Positions 3,681 through 13,611 of a stretch of DNA of 32,567 nucleotides are shown here, piece after piece. The notes under the pieces are model-generated. The model was given only the letters and a program-made list of their open reading frames with translations, did not search any database and had not been told where the DNA came from. Numbering within the stretch: position 1 is the stretch's first letter; the number at the start of each line of letters is the position of its first letter. A program made the position numbers and the translations under genes. Source of the DNA: a virus; the IMG/VR virus record IMGVR_UViG_3300030098_003509, positions 1-32,567 of that record; one strand, 5' to 3'.

Positions 3681-3907
3681 TATTTATTTCTTTTTTTTCT
3701 TAGTTTTCTTTTTTTCTGTAGTGCTTGCCAGTCTTTTCTTAAATATGTTTGAATTTTTATAACTACTTGATCACCACACGTGTTTTTTCTGATAACTTTT
3801 ACTCTGTGTTCACCTACTTTTTCAATTGTAGTTGTTATACATTTTTTTCTTTCTTGTGCATTTGTTGTTAAAGTAAATGCTAATAAAATTATAATTATTT
3901 TTTTCAT
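3680..3907 (-). CDS. Small secreted basic protein, 75 aa
   Basis: The protein has a signal peptide (MKKIIIILLAFTLTTNA, cleavage before Q18, typical of flavobacterial exports). The mature peptide is about 58 residues long and strongly basic, with two cysteines (C23 and C44) that could form a disulfide in the periplasm, and a Lys/Arg-rich C-terminus (KKRKLRKKRNK). The mature middle could form a small beta structure. It overlaps the giant gene by ATGA and the barrel-type gene by TAATG, so it sits in the same coupled chain. The charge suggests binding to an acidic partner such as lipopolysaccharide, peptidoglycan or nucleic acid; this is inference. No family recognised. Confidence 0.64.
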   Translation of the reverse strand: MKKIIIILLAFTLTTNAQERKKCITTTIEKVGEHRVKVIRKNTCGDQVVIKIQTYLRKDWQALQKKRKLRKKRNK

Positions 3908-6900
3908 GGTTTTTTATAATATTGAATTTTGCCGTCAGGCCTTTCTAATTGTACATAATCTATTCCTAATTTTAATCCTTTTGGTATTCCCTCCATTGAC
4001 CATGAATTAGGACCTGTCAATGGTACTCGCTTAGTGAATCCATTGGCTTTCGCTTTTTTAATAGATTCTCCATATTTTGTTTTTAATTTTATATCTTCTG
4101 CTTCTTCACGAGCTATTGTGCTTTCTCTTCCCCAATACGGTAAATCTAAATTCCAGCCAGACCAACCTAATAATAATGCTACTTTTTGCCAAGTTCTAGT
4201 ATTTTCATCAAAAGCTTGAGCAACATTCATCATTTTTCTCATAACTCTATCTACAGGAATATTAGTTGTAGCTGATATTATTTGGCTTACAGCTAAATAA
4301 GCAGGATTGTCTAAGCTCCAACCTCTTCTTTTAATTTCTTTCATGTTCCAATCAAAAGTTTTAGCAGCAGTTCTTAGCTTTCTAACTTTTGAATCTAAAA
4401 CTGGTGAAACATCAAAAACATCCCACACAATATCTCTATAGTTTGTGGTTTCTTTTTCTGACTCATCTAGTATTTTAAGCCCTATATTTTTTACTGTAGA
4501 TATTATAGCTCCTCCAAATCCTAAACCAAACAATAAAGAGTCAGTCATTCCATTTGCTATGTTAGCCATTCTATCTTTTTCTTTTTCATCTTCTTCATCA
4601 AACAATCCAGCAAACAGCGCTTGTTGTAACGCATTAAATAATAAGTTCTGTGCTCCAACATAATATATTATACTAGATAAATTACTTAAATCACTTTCGC
4701 GTTGAGTCATTCCAGGTTTTTTACGTCTATTATAAAGATCCTGTATAGATTTTTTAGTCTTCCTATTATACTGCATTGTAACGTTTTGAAACGCTAATAG
4801 CACACGACCCGCCATACTAGCTTGCTGTTGTGATATTTTACTAGGATTACTTGATTGTTGTGTTTCTTCTGCTATTTCATAAAAATCATCAAAAGCTTTA
4901 GCTTCTGCCTCTGCTTCAGTGTATAGCTTGCCGGTTTTTTCGTTAACTCTTTTTAATAATGATTTTTTTCTATTAATAAAAAATGTAGCTCCACCAATTG
5001 CTATAGCTAAACTATCCATTATTCTTGTTATAGCAAAACCTTTATCTAATAAATAACTTATAACACCTTGTATACCTCCTTTTCTACCTCTATCAACAAG
5101 CTCAGCTTCGTTAACATTAATTTTAAGGCCGTCACGTCTGTTAACTAAATAATCAGAATTAAGTAATTTAAATACTGTAGGGAAATATTCAAGACTTGCA
5201 AAAGCTTTACCAGCGTTTATAAAATTATTATCACCCCAGTTTATAAAGTTTACAGCAGATATAGTTTGCAGTAAACCAGATCTCATATTTAAGAACATTA
5301 TAGCTGCAACAGAAGAATTTAACCAATCTAGCATTTCATTAACCATTCTAGATCCTGGCCCTTGATAATTAGGTCTATTTGTACCTGATTTCATTCTGGA
5401 TAAAGAATCTTCTAAAGCCTCTCTAAATTTACTTCCGTAAAGTGCTTCTATTTTATTTAAATTTTTTTCAGAAAATATTATATCACTGTTTTCATTAAAC
5501 TCAGTCATAAGCTTAGTTCTAAATCCACTATTTAATCCTTGTATTATATCTGTTTTAATATTACCTGACAACCAGTTTTTACTTGGAGGAGGATATTGTT
5601 GATCTTTTTGAATTAATATTACTTCATCTGCAAATACATTAAGCTCAGAATCTGCTTCAACTGCTTTAACAAGTGCATTTATATCTCTTTTAGACATACC
5701 TGGAATATCCATACCTTGTTTATTCCACATATAAACTCTCATTGCTTGAGATTTTGTATAAGGACCCACTCCAATGGGTTGTAATAAAGGATTTTTTAAA
5801 CCTTTTCTTTTTAAACTAGGAAACTGTTTTTTAAGCGCCGCAAAATCATTAGCCACAGCAATTTTAGCTGACATTAATTCTTGCTCTGCTTTATTATAAA
5901 TATCTACTAAGTTATCCTTAATAAATTTCATATGTTTATTACCTTGTTCGCCTTTACCAATCATAGCATACATTAATCCCATGAAATCATCAGCTGAAGG
6001 AGTAATTGTAAATTGTTTTAAAAATCTTTTTATTAATCCCTTATCTTTTTGTTTACCCTCTAATTTAGCTCTTGCTGTAGAGTATTCTTTAAAACTTTCC
6101 TTGCCAGTTACTTCTTCTAATTGTTTATTAAAATCATTGTCTAGCTTAACAGCTTTATTTGCTTTAGCTACTTGAACTTTTGATTTAACATCTACAGCAT
6201 CTAACACAGCTTTTACACCCGCTACGTTAGCAAATGAATCATCTGCAAAATAAAAATCATTATATCCTTCAGCGGTTTTATTTAAAACCCAATCAGCTTT
6301 AGCTTGTGGAGAACCATCTTCTAAACCAGTTATGTTTTCTACTGGTATATTTATACCTATACCATCTAAAAATGTTTTAATAGCTGTAGCAGATGTTTGA
6401 GGTCTTGCGGTAAGAACAAATATATTTTTACTACCAAATTTACCTTGTCTTTTTCTAGCTAGCTCTGCCAATGGTCCTTCAGCTGTATCTTTAGAAACTT
6501 GTTCGAAATTACTAAAATCAAATGTTGCTCCAGCCTCTGTTAGTGCATCTGCTTGTTGAGCAAATTGACTCGCGGATATTTCAGTAACTGTGCCGTCTGG
6601 ATTAGTAACTATTACTTTTTCTTTAGTTTTTGCCAATGTGTCATCAAAATCAAATACACTTATTCCTTTTGTTTCTTTGTTTAAAGCTTTATTGGCTTTA
6701 ACTCTAGTTTCAAAAGAATTAACCATTGTGTTTTTAATTTGCTCACCAGTTCTATTCTCATTAAATATTTCTGAATTTAAAGCTTTATTAGCTTTTTTAA
6801 CATTATTATTTTTTAAAGATTGTATTGGCATACTAATATTTAATTTCTTTTTTGACTCAGATAATGTTAATTCAGGATTTAAAGCCATGTCAACCATTAA

Positions 6901-9900
6901 TTTATTTTGATAATTAATAGCGCTAGGATTATTAAATTCAGATTTTGGTATAACTAGTCCTACGGTTTCAGCGAAAGTTTTACCTGTTTTTAAATCAGTT
7001 ATAGTATTTAAATTAATAGTATTAGCTCCATTAACTTCTGCAGCTGCTAATCGCAACATACCTACATTTGGAGTTAATATACTCATTCCTTCTGGTAAAG
7101 TTTTATCTAATTTTGATAAATCTAATTTTCTATCATCAGCAGTAGATAATTGAACTTGAATAAAATTATCTCGTATACCCTGCATTACAGCATCAGCTTG
7201 ATTATTTTTTAATCCCCAAATCATAGCGGCACCAATAGAAGAAGCTGGTGGACTATGTTCTTCTATAAAATCCGCTTTAAGTTTTACTTGCTTGCCATCG
7301 GTTGCTCTAACAAACGCATCAGAAACGCCTACAAAAGGAGCTGCAATTTTTATTAAAGAAGCTGTCCCTTGGTAAGCTTGAGAAATAAGCAAAGCTGAAT
7401 CATTTATAGGTATAACTAATTTACCATTTTTATCTCTTGTATTTAAAATATCATAGAAATCATTTAACGCCTGCATATTTATTTTTTCTTGCGCTGCGTT
7501 TTTCTTTTTTATTTCAGGAGTTAGCTTTTGACCTTCTTTTATTTTAATTCTTTTTACTTTATTAAAATTATTTAAAACATCTTGATCAAAAGATTTGCTG
7601 TTTTCTTTAGCTGCTTTTTCTAAAGCTAAATAAGCTGGATCATTTTTACCTGCAAAAAGAGAACCTCTATTAGCTTGAAGATATACACCTTCGCCATGAA
7701 CCTCTTGTATTTGCTCTAGTGTTGGAGGATCATATAATTTTTTACCATCTTTACCTTTTCTAATTTTTCCGTTTTTGTCCAAGCGAGGATTACCCAACAT
7801 TCTTTTACCATTGTCTAAAACATATTCATAATCTCCATTTTCATTTGCAATTCTTTGAGCTCCAAAGTTTTTAAGCCCTAATAATTTAAGCATTTCAAAC
7901 GGAACTTTACCTTTTTTAACACTTTTTATAACAGACTTTTGTCTAGCTTTTCTATTTTCAGGTGTTACAGTTGTTTCTCCTGGTAAATCTTTAGCTATAA
8001 TATCTATGCCGCTTGTTTGCATTATTTTAGCTAAAGCAGCTTCATCTAATACAGCTAAATCAGTTTCATTTAATTTAGCTATATCCTTTTTAGAAACTAA
8101 CGCTTTGTTCGCCTTTACAACATCTAATGATGTATCTTCTTTAGTTCTTTGATCTAAACTATTTTCTAACTCAGACATGTATTGGTCAGCTGTCATGTCA
8201 ATACCTCTTAACTGTAAAGTATTGTTTAGCTTATCCATAAACGCTTTATCTTGTTTTAAATCATTAAGCCCTTCTACAATAGTTCCTTCTGCTAACATAC
8301 TAAATAAAGACTGCTGTCTTTTTTCTCCAGCTTTATAATACTCTTTTAATTTAGCATTGTCTATTTTATTAATTTTATAAACTGGTTTGTCAAAATATGT
8401 TTTCTTTCCTTCTTTAGTTACATTAATAGTAGGCGTAGTACCTGTTTGTTCATAATCTATTAAGCCTGATTCTACATTCGCCTTTCTTCCTAACCTACGT
8501 TTTATAGTAGCAGCAGGAATAGTTTTAGTTAAACCTTCATTTACTACATTATCAACAAATTGATTATATGAATCACTATTAAATTTTCCAATGTCTTTTC
8601 TCATCTGCTGCATAACAGATTTATCTTTTGTAGAAGCTATAATATCTTTAGCTACTCCTTCAGAACTTAATTTTTTACCTACACCTTGAATTATAGTTTT
8701 AGCTGCTCCCGTAGCTCTACCTGCTTCATCAACGCTACCTACTAAAGCTTTTTTACTTTCATTTGATATATTTTCTCTAACTGCTTTTAAAGAAGATGGA
8801 TATTTCTTTTTTCTACTTGTATCTTTTTGCTCTTTAGCATCAAAATCTTTTTGTGTAGTTGTTTCTAATGAAACACCTTTTTCATTTAAAACATCTTGAC
8901 TGACCTGTTTTCCTTTTCTAGTAGCTTCTTGTACTAATGCTGTACCAACTCTAGGACCAATAGCTTTATCTAAATAAGTAGTAAGAGAAACTTTTTTACC
9001 ATTTACTACAGGTTTGTAAGTTCTCATTATATCTGTAAACTCTGAACCAATTTTTGAAAGTGCTTCCCTACCTTGTTCCGTTAAACTTCCTTCTTTTGTA
9101 TAAAGATTTAAAGGAACACCTCTTTTAGCAGCCCATCTATTAAGAGCGTCTAAACTAGCAGCTGTATATTGACCTTTTAATTCTTTACTAGGATTTGCTT
9201 GAGGATTTTCTTGCAACTCTTGTTGGTAGTTATTAGTTAAATCGTTTAAAGCTTTATTTTCTTTAGCTATATTTACCCTGCCTAAATCGCCTTCGCTTCC
9301 TTGGAATCTTCTAATATCTTTACCAACCTCAGCACCTTCTTCCATCACTTTTATTTGAGCTTGATTTAATTTTCCCTTTTTAATAGAAGCATTGTAATCT
9401 TTTAAGAAATTATAAACATCTCTTCCGCTATTAAACTTAACATCTCTAAGTCCAGCTGCTTGTAAAAATCTTCTTATTTGATCTCCAATTTTAGTAAATA
9501 TATTTTCATTAAACTTTATATCTCCACTTTCAAGAGCATCAGCAAACAAAACAATTTTTTCTTCTGCTTTGATAGCGGCTGGGTCTTTTTTATATAATTC
9601 TAATTTTCTAGCAAATTTACTATTACCAACAGCCATGTAGTCTTCTGGATTTAATTTTGATAATTGATCATCTAAAGAAGCCGCTAAACCTCTAGCTACA
9701 TTTTTACCTTGTATATTACCATCACCATCTACTTCGTATAAAGTATTAAATAAAACCTTGTGTAAAAGTTCGTGAGCAGCTGTGTTACCCTCTCTCACTA
9801 AAGCTGCCATCTTTTTATCCATTACGATTTTACCATCATTGGTATAAAAACCTACTGTAAGGTTATCATTATCTAAAGCTATATTTTCTTTTTTAGCCTG

Positions 9901-12900
9901 TCTTTGTAAAGCCGCATTATCTTCAACAACAATCATATCTCCAGACTTACCCATCTCTGTCAATATTTTTTGAACATTACCCGTGGTTCTCTCTGCTTTA
10001 ATTATTTCAGTTTGAAAATCTATTAATAGGTTTTGTTCTTCTCTTAATGCTTTTTCTAGTGGCTTGTTTTTATCTTTTCTTGCTTTTTCAATTTCAGCTT
10101 CAAAAGTATTTATATCTACTTGAGTGTTTAATAAGTTAGCGTATTGATCATCACTCATGTTTGCTAAATACTCTTGACCAAACAATTGTTGATTAGCTGT
10201 TCTTACATTATTTAATGTATTTAACTCTTCGTAGTATTTTCTTTTTTGCTCAGCATCTGTTTCTCTATTAGGATATTTATCTCCTAATTCTTTTGTACTA
10301 TCTTTAAACCATTGCTCTAATTTTAAAGCAGCTTGTGCTCTATTACTGCCTGGTCTATATCTAACAGCCATATCACTAGCTATGTTTCTTATTTCTCTTT
10401 TAGTTTGAGTAGCTATTTGACCAGAAAATGGCAATACAAAACCTGTTATAGCACCACCTATACCAGCTTGTAGAGAAGCTTTAGTGTCTATTAAAGCGTC
10501 ATAAGCTCTTCCACTTTGAGTAGCTGCAGAAACCTGACCTAATATTTCCTGCATATATTCTGTACCAAATTCTTCTAAAGCATTACCTCCTTTTTCTATA
10601 GCTCCACGTAGCAACCATTTACCAGTGTCGTCCCAAGAAGTTTTAAATAAACTATTCATGGTTAAACCTTTAGCTCCTTTAACACCTTTCAAAGCATCTA
10701 TAGTTCCTTCTACTATTTGATTTGCACCATAACTTTCTAATATAGTTTGTGCGGCAGCAAATGCGGCTGAACTTGCCATGTCAGCACCTTCACCTGACTC
10801 AAGATTAGCTATAGCTTCTTTTTTATACATTTCATCTATTTCAGCTCTTGTTGCGTCTGGAAATTTTCTAGCTAATGATTCTTTGTCTAAACCTTTATCA
10901 GCTAGGTTTTGCTCTATAGCTCCCCAATAATTATCTCCATACATTTGTAAACCCATCATTGCTGTTCCCGCGTAGGTTAATAATGGAGCAACTGCAGCTA
11001 AAGAAGTACCACCTGTAAAAGCGGCTGCAACTGTACCAGCTGTAGCCATTCCTATATGAGGAGCAGCTTGACCAACTGTTAAAAAAACATCTTCAAAACT
11101 TATACCATCATCAAAATTAGCTTGTTTAAAAAGCGATAAATATTCTTCACTTTCCATCATATCTTCTATTTGCTCTACTACTTCAGCTTGATGATGAGAA
11201 ACATCGTCTTTATACCTATCTAATCTTTGCTTAATAGTCATTCTTTTGTCAGACTTGTTTTTGCTTTCAACATATTTACCTAGTTTTGTATCATAGTAAA
11301 CAGCTGTGTCTGGACTTAATCCTTCTTCAATAGCTTTATTTAAAGCATTAACTCGTTCTTTTGATTTTCTAAGTTGGTTGCCATGCCAGCTACCTTTTGC
11401 TTTATCACCAATAGAAACTTTTATTCCTTCTACACCAGAACCAAAACCTTCAAGCAAATTAGCAATACTATCGTTAAAAGGCAGCATATCATCTTCACCA
11501 CCAGCAATAAAATCAACCATGCTTAACCACAAGCTTTCATCTCTACCAAAAGCAATGTCATATTCCGCGGCAACCTCACCAACAGCTAATCCTATTTGAG
11601 AAACTCTTTTTTGAAATCTGAGATCTTGCGTCATAGCTCCAACAGTTAGCTCATTTTGTTTAGATTTCATTAAATCATTTATCTTTTCTACATCTTCATC
11701 ATTTTTAAGATCATATTTACCACTTGACAATAAGCTTTCTTTATATTTTTTTAGTTTAGGAATAGAATCTTCAGCATACTCATTTATAAGATCTTTTACA
11801 ACATAGTCACTACCTATCCATTCTTGCATTGCAATATCAGTTTTTTCTAATTTCTGCTCATCAGATAGATTAACCATTTCATTCATATCTCCTAGATATT
11901 CTCTAGCTTGATCTTTACCTTCATCAGTGGCTTCCATTACAGCTATGCTTTTACCTAAAAATGTTTCGTCAGTAGAATTGTTTACAACTTTTTGCCAACC
12001 ATCGTTCCAAGTGTTTTGAGTATATCTTTTAGTTTCTAATATTTTATTTAAATCTTGTCCTATTTGATCTTTTTTACCTGATAAAGCGTTGTTCCAGTTT
12101 TTAGAACCAATACCATCTGCAACAAGTTGTATGATTTCTGCCTCGTCTTCTATTCCAAAAGTTGTTTTAAAATATTCTAAATCTTCATCTGTTATTACAT
12201 TTTGGATTCCAGCTATTGTTGCCGCCTCTGCCTTGTTCCACAAACCTCCAGTACCTTGAGTGTATTGACTTGCACTTCTAGAAAGTGCATCTAAACGTTT
12301 ATCAAGTTTATCATCGCCAAATTCCCTAACATAGTTTTTAAGATATGGGCTAAATTGATAAAGAGATTCAACACCACCATCGCTAACAGCTTGTTCAAAT
12401 AATCTTTTTCTAATTTCCGCAGCACGATCACCAGCGCCATCTAAATTAATAAAATCTTGGTAAGCTTTAAATTCTTCTTCAGTTTGAAAATCTTCTCTTA
12501 CAGGTTCTTTCATATTAAACTCTGCTTGTTCTAACTTAGATTGTAGAGTTTTTAGATCTGCTAATTCAGCTTCTGTAGGATTTTCAGCATCTTCATAGGC
12601 AAATGTTTCTATTTGCTCTTTAGTGTCCTCATACTGTTTTTTAGCATCTGCAATACGTTTTTGCGTATCTGTAATTGTATCTAATGGATCATCAATATTA
12701 GAAATACTTACCTCCTTTGCAATTGAATTATTTATATCCCAGTTGAGAGCTTTTAATTCTTCAAAATCAGCTTCGGCTTGTTCTATTTGCTCTACAGATA
12801 GTTGATTAGGATCTGGGTTACCATTTTCATTATAAAACTCGTTGTTAGCTGCTAGTATTTCTAAACCTTCTTGTGTTAATTTACCGTTATCATCAAAACT

Positions 12901-13611
12901 AACAAGACCTTCTATATTACCAGTAAACCAACCAGGTGCATCAACTAATTGAATACCACCTTTTGTATCGCCCTGATCAGCTGTAATTAAAGAACCTAAG
13001 TTACTTTTTATTCTTTTTTCAGCTTCAAGTTTTAATTTAGTAGCATGTTCTAATCTTCTGTTATAAGCAGCTTCTTCATCACTTCCTGGCACTAAGTAAT
13101 CCGCGTTTTTACTAACACCAAAAGTTTTTCCATATCTTTTGATTCCTCTTTGCTTGCCTTCAGGAAGTTCATCAAAATTGTAATATTCAAATTTTTTAGT
13201 ATTTTGATTATATAGTTTATATTCTTTTTTTACATTTTTATCCCAATCAAAATCTCTAGCTGTTTTTATATCTGCTACTTCATCAGCTAATCTTTTATTT
13301 TCTGCCTCTTGTTCTTGTTTTAGTTTTTCATACTCAGCATACTGTTTATCGTATTCTGCTTTTAATTTTTTTCTTTTTTCATTTTCTGTTTCAATAACAG
13401 AATTTATATTTTGAGGATCTATTTGTTTAGTTATATACAATCGTTGATCAAACGTAGGTCCTTTACCAGTATACTTTTCGTAAATAGTATCTATAACTGC
13501 TTGTTGATCTGGTACAGATGAAGCATATTTTACTTTTTCAGCAATTTGCTCATCTGTTAAATCTGTAGCGTATTTTTTATACAATTCAGTATATAAATTT
13601 TCTCTACTCAT
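3904..13611 (-). CDS. Giant multidomain ejection-type (polyvalent) virion protein with zincin and HAD domains, 3235 aa
   Basis: The N-terminal 800 residues are mainly charged helices and coiled coil. Gly/Ala-rich hydrophobic segments follow at about 838-905 and 1044-1060. A zinc-protease motif HELLH is at 1280-1284, with EEKIVLFADA at 1350-1359 as a likely further ligand region. A HAD phosphatase-type domain spans about 2316-2482 (DFDDTLA at 2321-2327, LTARP, a Lys in QAKADW, then DDS). The C-terminal 500 residues contain further hydrophobic segments and the conserved-looking SGLLQTISAVNFINWGDN. A short motif K-A/E-N-K-A-L/V recurs at 1450, 1833, 2273, 2305 and 2483, two copies flanking the HAD domain. 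Position after two smaller internal-protein candidates matches the T7-type ejection set, whose last member is the largest. Large injected polyvalent proteins commonly combine such domains. No RNA-polymerase signature was seen. Start follows AAAATTAAATA; the gene overlaps the next by ATGA. Confidence 0.8.
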   Translation of the reverse strand: MSRENLYTELYKKYATDLTDEQIAEKVKYASSVPDQQAVIDTIYEKYTGKGPTFDQRLYITKQIDPQNINSVIETENEKRKKLKAEYDKQYAEYEKLKQEQEAENKRLADEVADIKTARDFDWDKNVKKEYKLYNQNTKKFEYYNFDELPEGKQRGIKRYGKTFGVSKNADYLVPGSDEEAAYNRRLEHATKLKLEAEKRIKSNLGSLITADQGDTKGGIQLVDAPGWFTGNIEGLVSFDDNGKLTQEGLEILAANNEFYNENGNPDPNQLSVEQIEQAEADFEELKALNWDINNSIAKEVSISNIDDPLDTITDTQKRIADAKKQYEDTKEQIETFAYEDAENPTEAELADLKTLQSKLEQAEFNMKEPVREDFQTEEEFKAYQDFINLDGAGDRAAEIRKRLFEQAVSDGGVESLYQFSPYLKNYVREFGDDKLDKRLDALSRSASQYTQGTGGLWNKAEAATIAGIQNVITDEDLEYFKTTFGIEDEAEIIQLVADGIGSKNWNNALSGKKDQIGQDLNKILETKRYTQNTWNDGWQKVVNNSTDETFLGKSIAVMEATDEGKDQAREYLGDMNEMVNLSDEQKLEKTDIAMQEWIGSDYVVKDLINEYAEDSIPKLKKYKESLLSSGKYDLKNDEDVEKINDLMKSKQNELTVGAMTQDLRFQKRVSQIGLAVGEVAAEYDIAFGRDESLWLSMVDFIAGGEDDMLPFNDSIANLLEGFGSGVEGIKVSIGDKAKGSWHGNQLRKSKERVNALNKAIEEGLSPDTAVYYDTKLGKYVESKNKSDKRMTIKQRLDRYKDDVSHHQAEVVEQIEDMMESEEYLSLFKQANFDDGISFEDVFLTVGQAAPHIGMATAGTVAAAFTGGTSLAAVAPLLTYAGTAMMGLQMYGDNYWGAIEQNLADKGLDKESLARKFPDATRAEIDEMYKKEAIANLESGEGADMASSAAFAAAQTILESYGANQIVEGTIDALKGVKGAKGLTMNSLFKTSWDDTGKWLLRGAIEKGGNALEEFGTEYMQEILGQVSAATQSGRAYDALIDTKASLQAGIGGAITGFVLPFSGQIATQTKREIRNIASDMAVRYRPGSNRAQAALKLEQWFKDSTKELGDKYPNRETDAEQKRKYYEELNTLNNVRTANQQLFGQEYLANMSDDQYANLLNTQVDINTFEAEIEKARKDKNKPLEKALREEQNLLIDFQTEIIKAERTTGNVQKILTEMGKSGDMIVVEDNAALQRQAKKENIALDNDNLTVGFYTNDGKIVMDKKMAALVREGNTAAHELLHKVLFNTLYEVDGDGNIQGKNVARGLAASLDDQLSKLNPEDYMAVGNSKFARKLELYKKDPAAIKAEEKIVLFADALESGDIKFNENIFTKIGDQIRRFLQAAGLRDVKFNSGRDVYNFLKDYNASIKKGKLNQAQIKVMEEGAEVGKDIRRFQGSEGDLGRVNIAKENKALNDLTNNYQQELQENPQANPSKELKGQYTAASLDALNRWAAKRGVPLNLYTKEGSLTEQGREALSKIGSEFTDIMRTYKPVVNGKKVSLTTYLDKAIGPRVGTALVQEATRKGKQVSQDVLNEKGVSLETTTQKDFDAKEQKDTSRKKKYPSSLKAVRENISNESKKALVGSVDEAGRATGAAKTIIQGVGKKLSSEGVAKDIIASTKDKSVMQQMRKDIGKFNSDSYNQFVDNVVNEGLTKTIPAATIKRRLGRKANVESGLIDYEQTGTTPTINVTKEGKKTYFDKPVYKINKIDNAKLKEYYKAGEKRQQSLFSMLAEGTIVEGLNDLKQDKAFMDKLNNTLQLRGIDMTADQYMSELENSLDQRTKEDTSLDVVKANKALVSKKDIAKLNETDLAVLDEAALAKIMQTSGIDIIAKDLPGETTVTPENRKARQKSVIKSVKKGKVPFEMLKLLGLKNFGAQRIANENGDYEYVLDNGKRMLGNPRLDKNGKIRKGKDGKKLYDPPTLEQIQEVHGEGVYLQANRGSLFAGKNDPAYLALEKAAKENSKSFDQDVLNNFNKVKRIKIKEGQKLTPEIKKKNAAQEKINMQALNDFYDILNTRDKNGKLVIPINDSALLISQAYQGTASLIKIAAPFVGVSDAFVRATDGKQVKLKADFIEEHSPPASSIGAAMIWGLKNNQADAVMQGIRDNFIQVQLSTADDRKLDLSKLDKTLPEGMSILTPNVGMLRLAAAEVNGANTINLNTITDLKTGKTFAETVGLVIPKSEFNNPSAINYQNKLMVDMALNPELTLSESKKKLNISMPIQSLKNNNVKKANKALNSEIFNENRTGEQIKNTMVNSFETRVKANKALNKETKGISVFDFDDTLAKTKEKVIVTNPDGTVTEISASQFAQQADALTEAGATFDFSNFEQVSKDTAEGPLAELARKRQGKFGSKNIFVLTARPQTSATAIKTFLDGIGINIPVENITGLEDGSPQAKADWVLNKTAEGYNDFYFADDSFANVAGVKAVLDAVDVKSKVQVAKANKAVKLDNDFNKQLEEVTGKESFKEYSTARAKLEGKQKDKGLIKRFLKQFTITPSADDFMGLMYAMIGKGEQGNKHMKFIKDNLVDIYNKAEQELMSAKIAVANDFAALKKQFPSLKRKGLKNPLLQPIGVGPYTKSQAMRVYMWNKQGMDIPGMSKRDINALVKAVEADSELNVFADEVILIQKDQQYPPPSKNWLSGNIKTDIIQGLNSGFRTKLMTEFNENSDIIFSEKNLNKIEALYGSKFREALEDSLSRMKSGTNRPNYQGPGSRMVNEMLDWLNSSVAAIMFLNMRSGLLQTISAVNFINWGDNNFINAGKAFASLEYFPTVFKLLNSDYLVNRRDGLKINVNEAELVDRGRKGGIQGVISYLLDKGFAITRIMDSLAIAIGGATFFINRKKSLLKRVNEKTGKLYTEAEAEAKAFDDFYEIAEETQQSSNPSKISQQQASMAGRVLLAFQNVTMQYNRKTKKSIQDLYNRRKKPGMTQRESDLSNLSSIIYYVGAQNLLFNALQQALFAGLFDEEDEKEKDRMANIANGMTDSLLFGLGFGGAIISTVKNIGLKILDESEKETTNYRDIVWDVFDVSPVLDSKVRKLRTAAKTFDWNMKEIKRRGWSLDNPAYLAVSQIISATTNIPVDRVMRKMMNVAQAFDENTRTWQKVALLLGWSGWNLDLPYWGRESTIAREEAEDIKLKTKYGESIKKAKANGFTKRVPLTGPNSWSMEGIPKGLKLGIDYVQLERPDGKIQYYKKP

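Follow-up and report, generated by a model that had tools for sequence, protein, structure and literature searches.

A recurrent K-x-N-K-A motif at module borders of a giant crAss-like phage protein: candidate cleavage sites for an embedded zincin-like domain

The virus record IMGVR_UViG_3300030098_003509, analyzed here as a window of 32,567 nt (the whole stretch of DNA under study), encodes a giant protein of 3,235 aa (hereafter W, a label used also for its phage) whose gene adjoins virion genes and in which unrelated enzyme-like domains are joined: a zincin-like domain, a module with an EEHxPP motif, and a HAD domain. A first-pass annotation reported that a short motif, K-x-N-K-A, recurs five times in this protein, apparently at the borders of modules, and offered three roles for it: sites of protease processing, points at which modules are swapped by recombination, or a signal for unfolding and threading through the tail. 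The question raised by this locus is whether the motif does mark module borders and, if so, which of these roles it most probably serves. The features concerned are as follows (residue numbers are those of W).

3904..13611, (-) strand: giant protein ORF, 3,235 aa, polyprotein-like
9298..10044, (-) strand: zincin-like domain (residues ~1190-1438), HELLH at 1280-1284, third-ligand candidate E1351
9244..9264, (-) strand: site 1, KENKALN (residues 1450-1456), directly after the zincin-like domain
8128..9249, (-) strand: module A (residues 1455-1828), two folded parts with a linker between them at ~1568-1597
8095..8115, (-) strand: site 2, KANKALV (residues 1833-1839), pLDDT <50 in both models
6796..8052, (-) strand: module B (residues 1854-2272), confident fold, mostly pLDDT >90
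6775..6795, (-) strand: site 3, KANKALN (residues 2273-2279), helix end, pLDDT 65 dropping to 54
6679..6699, (-) strand: site 4, KANKALN (residues 2305-2311), HAD N-edge, pLDDT ~55
6160..6675, (-) strand: HAD phosphatase-like domain (residues 2313-2484), structure alignment to T4 Pnkp
6148..6165, (-) strand: site 5, KANKAV (residues 2483-2488), HAD C-edge, pLDDT 52 dropping to 44
3907..6129, (-) strand: conserved C-terminal module (residues 2495-3235), site-like motifs few in relatives

The window carries genes for the terminase (TerL), the portal, the major capsid protein (MCP), and other structural proteins in crAss-type order (PHROGs), and its muzzle protein carries the Crassvirales C-terminal domain PF25729 (E 1.2e-12, above cut-off). 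The phage is crAss-like and probably a member of Crassvirales or a close relative. Its MCP is nearest to that of Maribacter phage Panino (48%), followed by those of a Manatee Spring genome, Flavobacterium elemo phages, and Cellulophaga phages, and because of these affinities the host is probably a Bacteroidota bacterium. The phages nearest by MCP (Panino and others) are filed only as Caudoviricetes, and MCP relatives of the Panino, elemo, and Cellulophaga type have the same gene order as W, up to a syntenic giant. No RNA families or tRNAs were found in the window. W matched no Pfam family at cut-off and no PHROG, and none of the classical polyvalent Pfam domains was found in it. Its C-terminal 1,796 residues had no tblastn match among 50,697 phage records and many matches in environmental viral contigs; the C-terminal part of another giant, L013 (L-numbers denote relatives), likewise had no tblastn match among the giants of cultured phages. 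The set used for comparison comprised 125 unique giants, counting W, none of them shorter than 2,000 aa.

All five copies of the motif were recovered where they had been reported (KENKALN at 1450, KANKALV at 1833, KANKALN at 2273 and 2305, and KANKAV at 2483), the spacings of 383, 440, 32, and 178 residues between them are correct, and no K.NKA occurs elsewhere in the six frames of the window (32.6 kb of genome). By composition, 0.21 K.NKA would be expected in W against the 5 observed, and 500 first-order Markov versions of the protein held a mean of 0.23 and never more than 3. When the pattern was chosen freely, one or more of the 500 Markov versions held a most frequent four-of-five pattern with 5 occurrences, so that by count alone the five copies are borderline. 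The extended repeat (an 8-residue seed with its three best other copies) scored 92 in W, whereas shuffles gave 74-75, and of the giants scanned W ranked at the top together with its close relative L001. The four KANKA copies are encoded as AAGGCGAACAAAGCG, AAAGCTAATAAAGCT, AAAGCCAATAAAGCT, and AAAGCAAATAAAGCT, with the first Ala written GCG, GCT, GCC, and GCA; since all four Ala codons are used, the repeat is kept at the level of the protein and not of the codon.

Two AlphaFold models with family alignments span residues 1150-2560 of W. In these, every copy falls in a low-confidence linker and none of the five lies inside a confidently folded domain, which bears out the earlier description of W as polyprotein-like, with a linker that recurs where modules meet; the low pLDDT of the models at the copies suggests that these linkers are disordered. 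Site 1 does follow the zincin-like domain, as had been proposed, and at model residues 301-307 overlaps the tail of a stretch in which pLDDT is <50 (model residues 291-303). The linker inside module A carries no motif. Sites 3 and 4 sit in a stretch of pLDDT 50-65 that separates module B from HAD, and site 5 opens a low-confidence stretch beyond HAD. That two copies bracket the HAD domain was likewise confirmed, AlphaFold and structural alignment both placing the fold at residues 2313-2484. Its best structural match is the 3'-phosphatase of T4 Pnkp (5uj0_B, Z 13.1, rmsd 3.0, 126 residues aligned), and the HAD signature DxDxT is present (GISVFDFDDT at residue 2316); the modeled domain and the T4 polynucleotide kinase 3'-phosphatase are alike in fold at ~14% identity, and phosphatase activity in W is putative. 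Ends of BLAST matches gather near site 1 (30 ends at residues 1420-1440) and at site 2 (15 ends at 1820-1840), and 32 match starts lie at sites 3 and 4 (2260-2320). Within module B, an EEHSPPAS segment (residues 2117-2124, window 7240-7263) has its E, H, and P invariant in 45 aligned giants.

The zincin-like domain of W has the HExxH motif and a downstream Glu ligand (H1280, E1281, H1284, and E1351). Across the 108 giants with such a domain, E1281, H1284, and E1351 are invariant and the first His is kept in 94%. A profile made from the HELLH domain detected the domain in 102 of 102 HExxH giants and in six EExxH giants (L003, L015, L023, L044, L061, and L170), in which EELFH or EEIFH replaces HExxH and the other conserved residues are kept. 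The domain of W itself had no Pfam match, Peptidase_M78 was weakly matched by 2 of 38 members, and a PDB profile search with the domain gave no hit. Foldseek and VIA-align, queried with a 701-residue multidomain model, listed no zincin and yielded helical coincidences only.

As a set, the literal K-x-N-K-A was found in W and L001 only among the relatives searched. A test on that spelling would have dismissed the finding, because the site is broader and KANKA is how a single lineage spells it, so that a literal search alone misses the sites of the relatives. An unsupervised scan for 8-mer repeats left most other giants at noise level, and a targeted test was needed. The aligned HAD C-edge, i.e., the position of site 5, was read in the 125 giants, and most relatives hold a variant there (AKFSKS, AKASKR, AKSSKK, AKESKA, or ALESKG), with copies of the same spelling within one protein at -10, ~-45, ~-400 to -490, and ~-770 to -870 relative to HAD. 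For example, in L041 KFSKSLN stands at -11 and +167, the places taken in W by KANKALN and KANKAV; L017 has AKFSKARK at -481 and AKESKARK at +167; and L040 has VKASKKRK at -453 and AKASKKRN at +173. In 75 zincin-bearing representatives, the stretch from zincin to the end of HAD held 53 further copies of each phage's own HAD C-edge 7-mer, compared to 12.7 +- 3.6 copies (maximum 28 in 20,000) when 7-mers were swapped among phages, a control that is conservative because the phages are related, and to 3 copies in reversed stretches. About half of the zincin-bearing representatives have no second copy at the threshold chosen. Judged from these sequences, the family-wide consensus would be roughly [KR]-x-[SN]-K-x, of which KANKA is the form in W.

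Several further repeats and neighboring ORFs were seen in the relatives. L006 has a single KANKAL at residue 449, N-terminal of its zincin, and a divergent HAD-edge site (ARVQNS). Tandem YENIK-like repeats (YENIKYENIKYEEIIYENIEYE) occupy residues 2965-2986 at the very C-terminus of the L011 giant, and a GLTKKEIK-type segment occurs in 2-3 copies, mostly toward the C-terminus, in L051, L056, and L093.

Related giants were examined for the position of sites, which was found not to be random: sites lie at shared borders. The patterns counted were set after the HAD-edge sequences had been seen, and the HAD C-edge site was excluded from the counts. The pattern [KR][AFYE][SN]K[ASTKR] outnumbered its mirror pattern by 83 to 14 between zincin and the end of HAD, with 14 versus 7 N-terminal of zincin, 5 versus 9 in the C-terminal module, and 3 versus 1 in giants that lack HExxH; for [KR][FY]S[KRL][STAN], the counts in the same four regions were 42 versus 4, 1 versus 0, 2 versus 1, and 3 versus 0. 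Density peaks 150-200 residues past HExxH (19 versus 4 for the mirror), ~450-600 residues past HExxH, at most 50 residues before HAD (29 versus 11), and directly after HAD (29 versus 5), and the count inside HAD is near zero. The 53 mid-region sites have a mean local homology-breakpoint percentile of 0.71 (p 2e-6), and 21 mirror-pattern places have a mean of 0.62, which does not differ significantly from the sites; as evidence against random positions the breakpoint test is strong, but it does not set the sites apart from the mirror control.

The sites are associated with the zincin-like domain. Of the 17 zincin-less giants, 16 have a non-site sequence, AIxxK, at the HAD edge, versus 1 of 108 with zincin (Fisher 5e-18, uncorrected for relatedness). 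There is one exception of each kind: L043 has zincin yet AIADK at the HAD edge, and L007 has AKASKRR there without zincin. On a tree of the C-terminal module, zincin changed 5 times, with a matching change of site in 4, none in 1, and an opposite change in 0; a sign test on these 5 independent contrasts can reach p 0.125 at the lowest and so never 0.05. The form of the site also varies with that of the domain, as SKG stands at the HAD-edge site in 5 of 6 EExxH giants and in none of the HExxH giants among the C-edge sequences listed. When similarity along the protein was correlated with zincin distance and the distance of the C-terminal module was removed, the HAD C-edge windows (residues 2484 and 2482) ranked 2 and 6 of 226; with partial Mantel values of 0.15-0.17, this is a weak but specific signal. 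No separate zincin gene was found among ORFs of at least 300 aa in the flanks examined of the zincin-less phages. It should be noted that L004, L007, L012, L025, and L030 have shorter zincin-less giants (~2,250-2,400 aa) preceded by an extra ~369-aa ORF, possibly a split-off N-terminal part.

Among cultured phages, the Flavobacterium elemo phage protein gp18 (NC_055854.1; L224 12852-23936) is a giant structural protein of 3,694 aa in the syntenic position, and its zincin is homologous to that of the W family (E 6.7e-10). The giants of elemo (gp18) and MW202828 have a zincin-like HExxH and no cluster of W-type sites; for gp18, a zincin without clear sites implies either that the spelling differs strongly or that the rule is confined to the environmental phage group of W. 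The syntenic giant of Maribacter phage Panino (L221 31768-37257; 1,829 aa) is annotated as 'tRNA methyltransferase' and is without HExxH.

Taken from the sequences and models, these observations suggest that the tags are probably cleavage sites, used by the phage to divide its own giant protein into functional parts. Of the three roles first offered, protease processing is the best supported, because the sites are found together with the embedded zincin and nearly all of them are C-terminal to it. More specifically, we consider it fairly likely that W is a polyprotein whose embedded zincin cuts it within inter-domain linkers, at sites tuned to the lineage. W would be a cargo polyprotein of the virion with an embedded zincin-type metallopeptidase that reads the tag in the linkers and cuts in cis or on a neighboring copy, either in the head during assembly or after ejection. 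Cuts would fall after zincin, between modules A and B, and on either side of HAD and, if made inside the motif, would yield predicted products of 162.8, 42.5, 48.3, 3.7, 19.0, and 84.8 kDa. The sites of one phage would be spelled alike because a single enzyme has to recognize all of them; the spelling would drift between lineages along with the enzyme, and where zincin is lost the sites would decay. A broader proposal, which we hold only tentatively and at somewhat less than an even chance, is that these giants form a self-processing family in which zincin and cut sites co-evolve under per-lineage codes (KANKA, KFSKS, KASKR, and ESKG), the EExxH variant active site goes with SKG, and cut sites double as joints at which cargo modules are swapped.

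The gathering of match ends at sites 1 and 2 and of match starts at sites 3 and 4, the nearness of the mid-region sites to breakpoints, and the occurrence of the intervening modules in differing subsets of relatives could also be read as the work of shuffling linkers, in which short permissive junction sequences have been spread by recombination and have no cutting role. Module swapping does hold as a description, given that breakpoints coincide with sites, but is not supported as the cause of the repeat, whose synonymous codons differ among copies and point to maintenance as protein rather than to fresh copying. Moreover, HAD and the C-terminal module travel together yet have a site between them, a pure linker need not vanish when zincin is lost, and the mirror pattern also lies somewhat near breakpoints; mere shuffling is thus an unlikely explanation. 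One spelling per phage would also be expected if the tags were docking peptides for a portal, scaffold, or chaperone, used in loading or threading and tuned in spelling to that partner, and part of a PhiCrAss001 cargo protein does bind the portal (PMC10172136). Docking, however, explains neither the link to zincin nor the scarcity of sites before zincin and in the C-terminal module, and we regard it as decidedly unlikely.

Lysine-rich linkers are generally protease-prone, which counts in favor of sites cut by another enzyme, either a phage protease of head maturation or a host protease. The prohead protease of SPN3US cuts many head proteins after AXE (PMC10052503). Against this stand the confinement of K.NKA to a single protein of the 32.6-kb window, the portal, MCP, and other structural genes being without it, and the tracking of zincin by sites within the same protein, so that cutting by another enzyme appears very unlikely. 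Chance, or low-complexity linkers rich in Lys, Asn, and Ala in an AT-rich genome, is suggested by the composition of the window (GC 32%) and of W (Lys 10%, Asn 7%), but matches are far fewer in the mirror and swap controls, which preserve composition, and site positions are not random, which makes this reading the most improbable of those considered.

The polyproteins of RNA viruses have an embedded protease and several commonly spelled sites at domain borders; they resemble W in its proposed working and are unrelated to it in protease fold and genome type. Among phages, the closest parallel lies in the polyvalent proteins, which like W are large multidomain proteins with an internal HExxH...E domain and predicted self-processing (Iyer et al., 2017; PMC5512222). 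In the parts of that study drawn on here, zincin-like domains are the most common domain of polyvalent proteins, their processing role is a prediction for which both timings are discussed, and the N4 virion RNA polymerase has a zincin-like domain and is packaged uncut. Those parts describe no cleavage sites, whereas W has a recurrent set of sites with a lineage-specific spelling. In the T4 and SPN3US prohead protease systems (PMC10052503), as putatively in W, proteins stored in the head are cut at a short motif; there, however, a separate protease acts on many proteins, mostly by removal of N-terminal propeptides, whereas in W the candidate is a domain within the substrate itself. Unlike AXE of SPN3US, the W motif lacks Glu and, within the window, occurs in a single protein. 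The PhiCrAss001 cargo proteins gp45-gp50 resemble W in that a giant protein of the late region accompanies a muzzle and crAss-type structural genes, but W shows no sequence match to any phage record; the 2023 structure paper on PhiCrAss001 does not mention cleavage or a protease (PMC10172136). No description of a matching set of cleavage sites was found in the open literature searched. Processing by zincin was thus already predicted in 2017, and the matching set of sites appears to be new.

For the predicted processing of polyvalent proteins, the locus puts names to the sites and the products, and its zincin-less relatives serve as a natural negative control. If the proposed self-cleavage is correct, it would help explain how cargo proteins of thousands of residues could get through a narrow tail and work as separate enzymes. 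The family would in that case also supply site-specific proteases that have diverged naturally and may be orthogonal.
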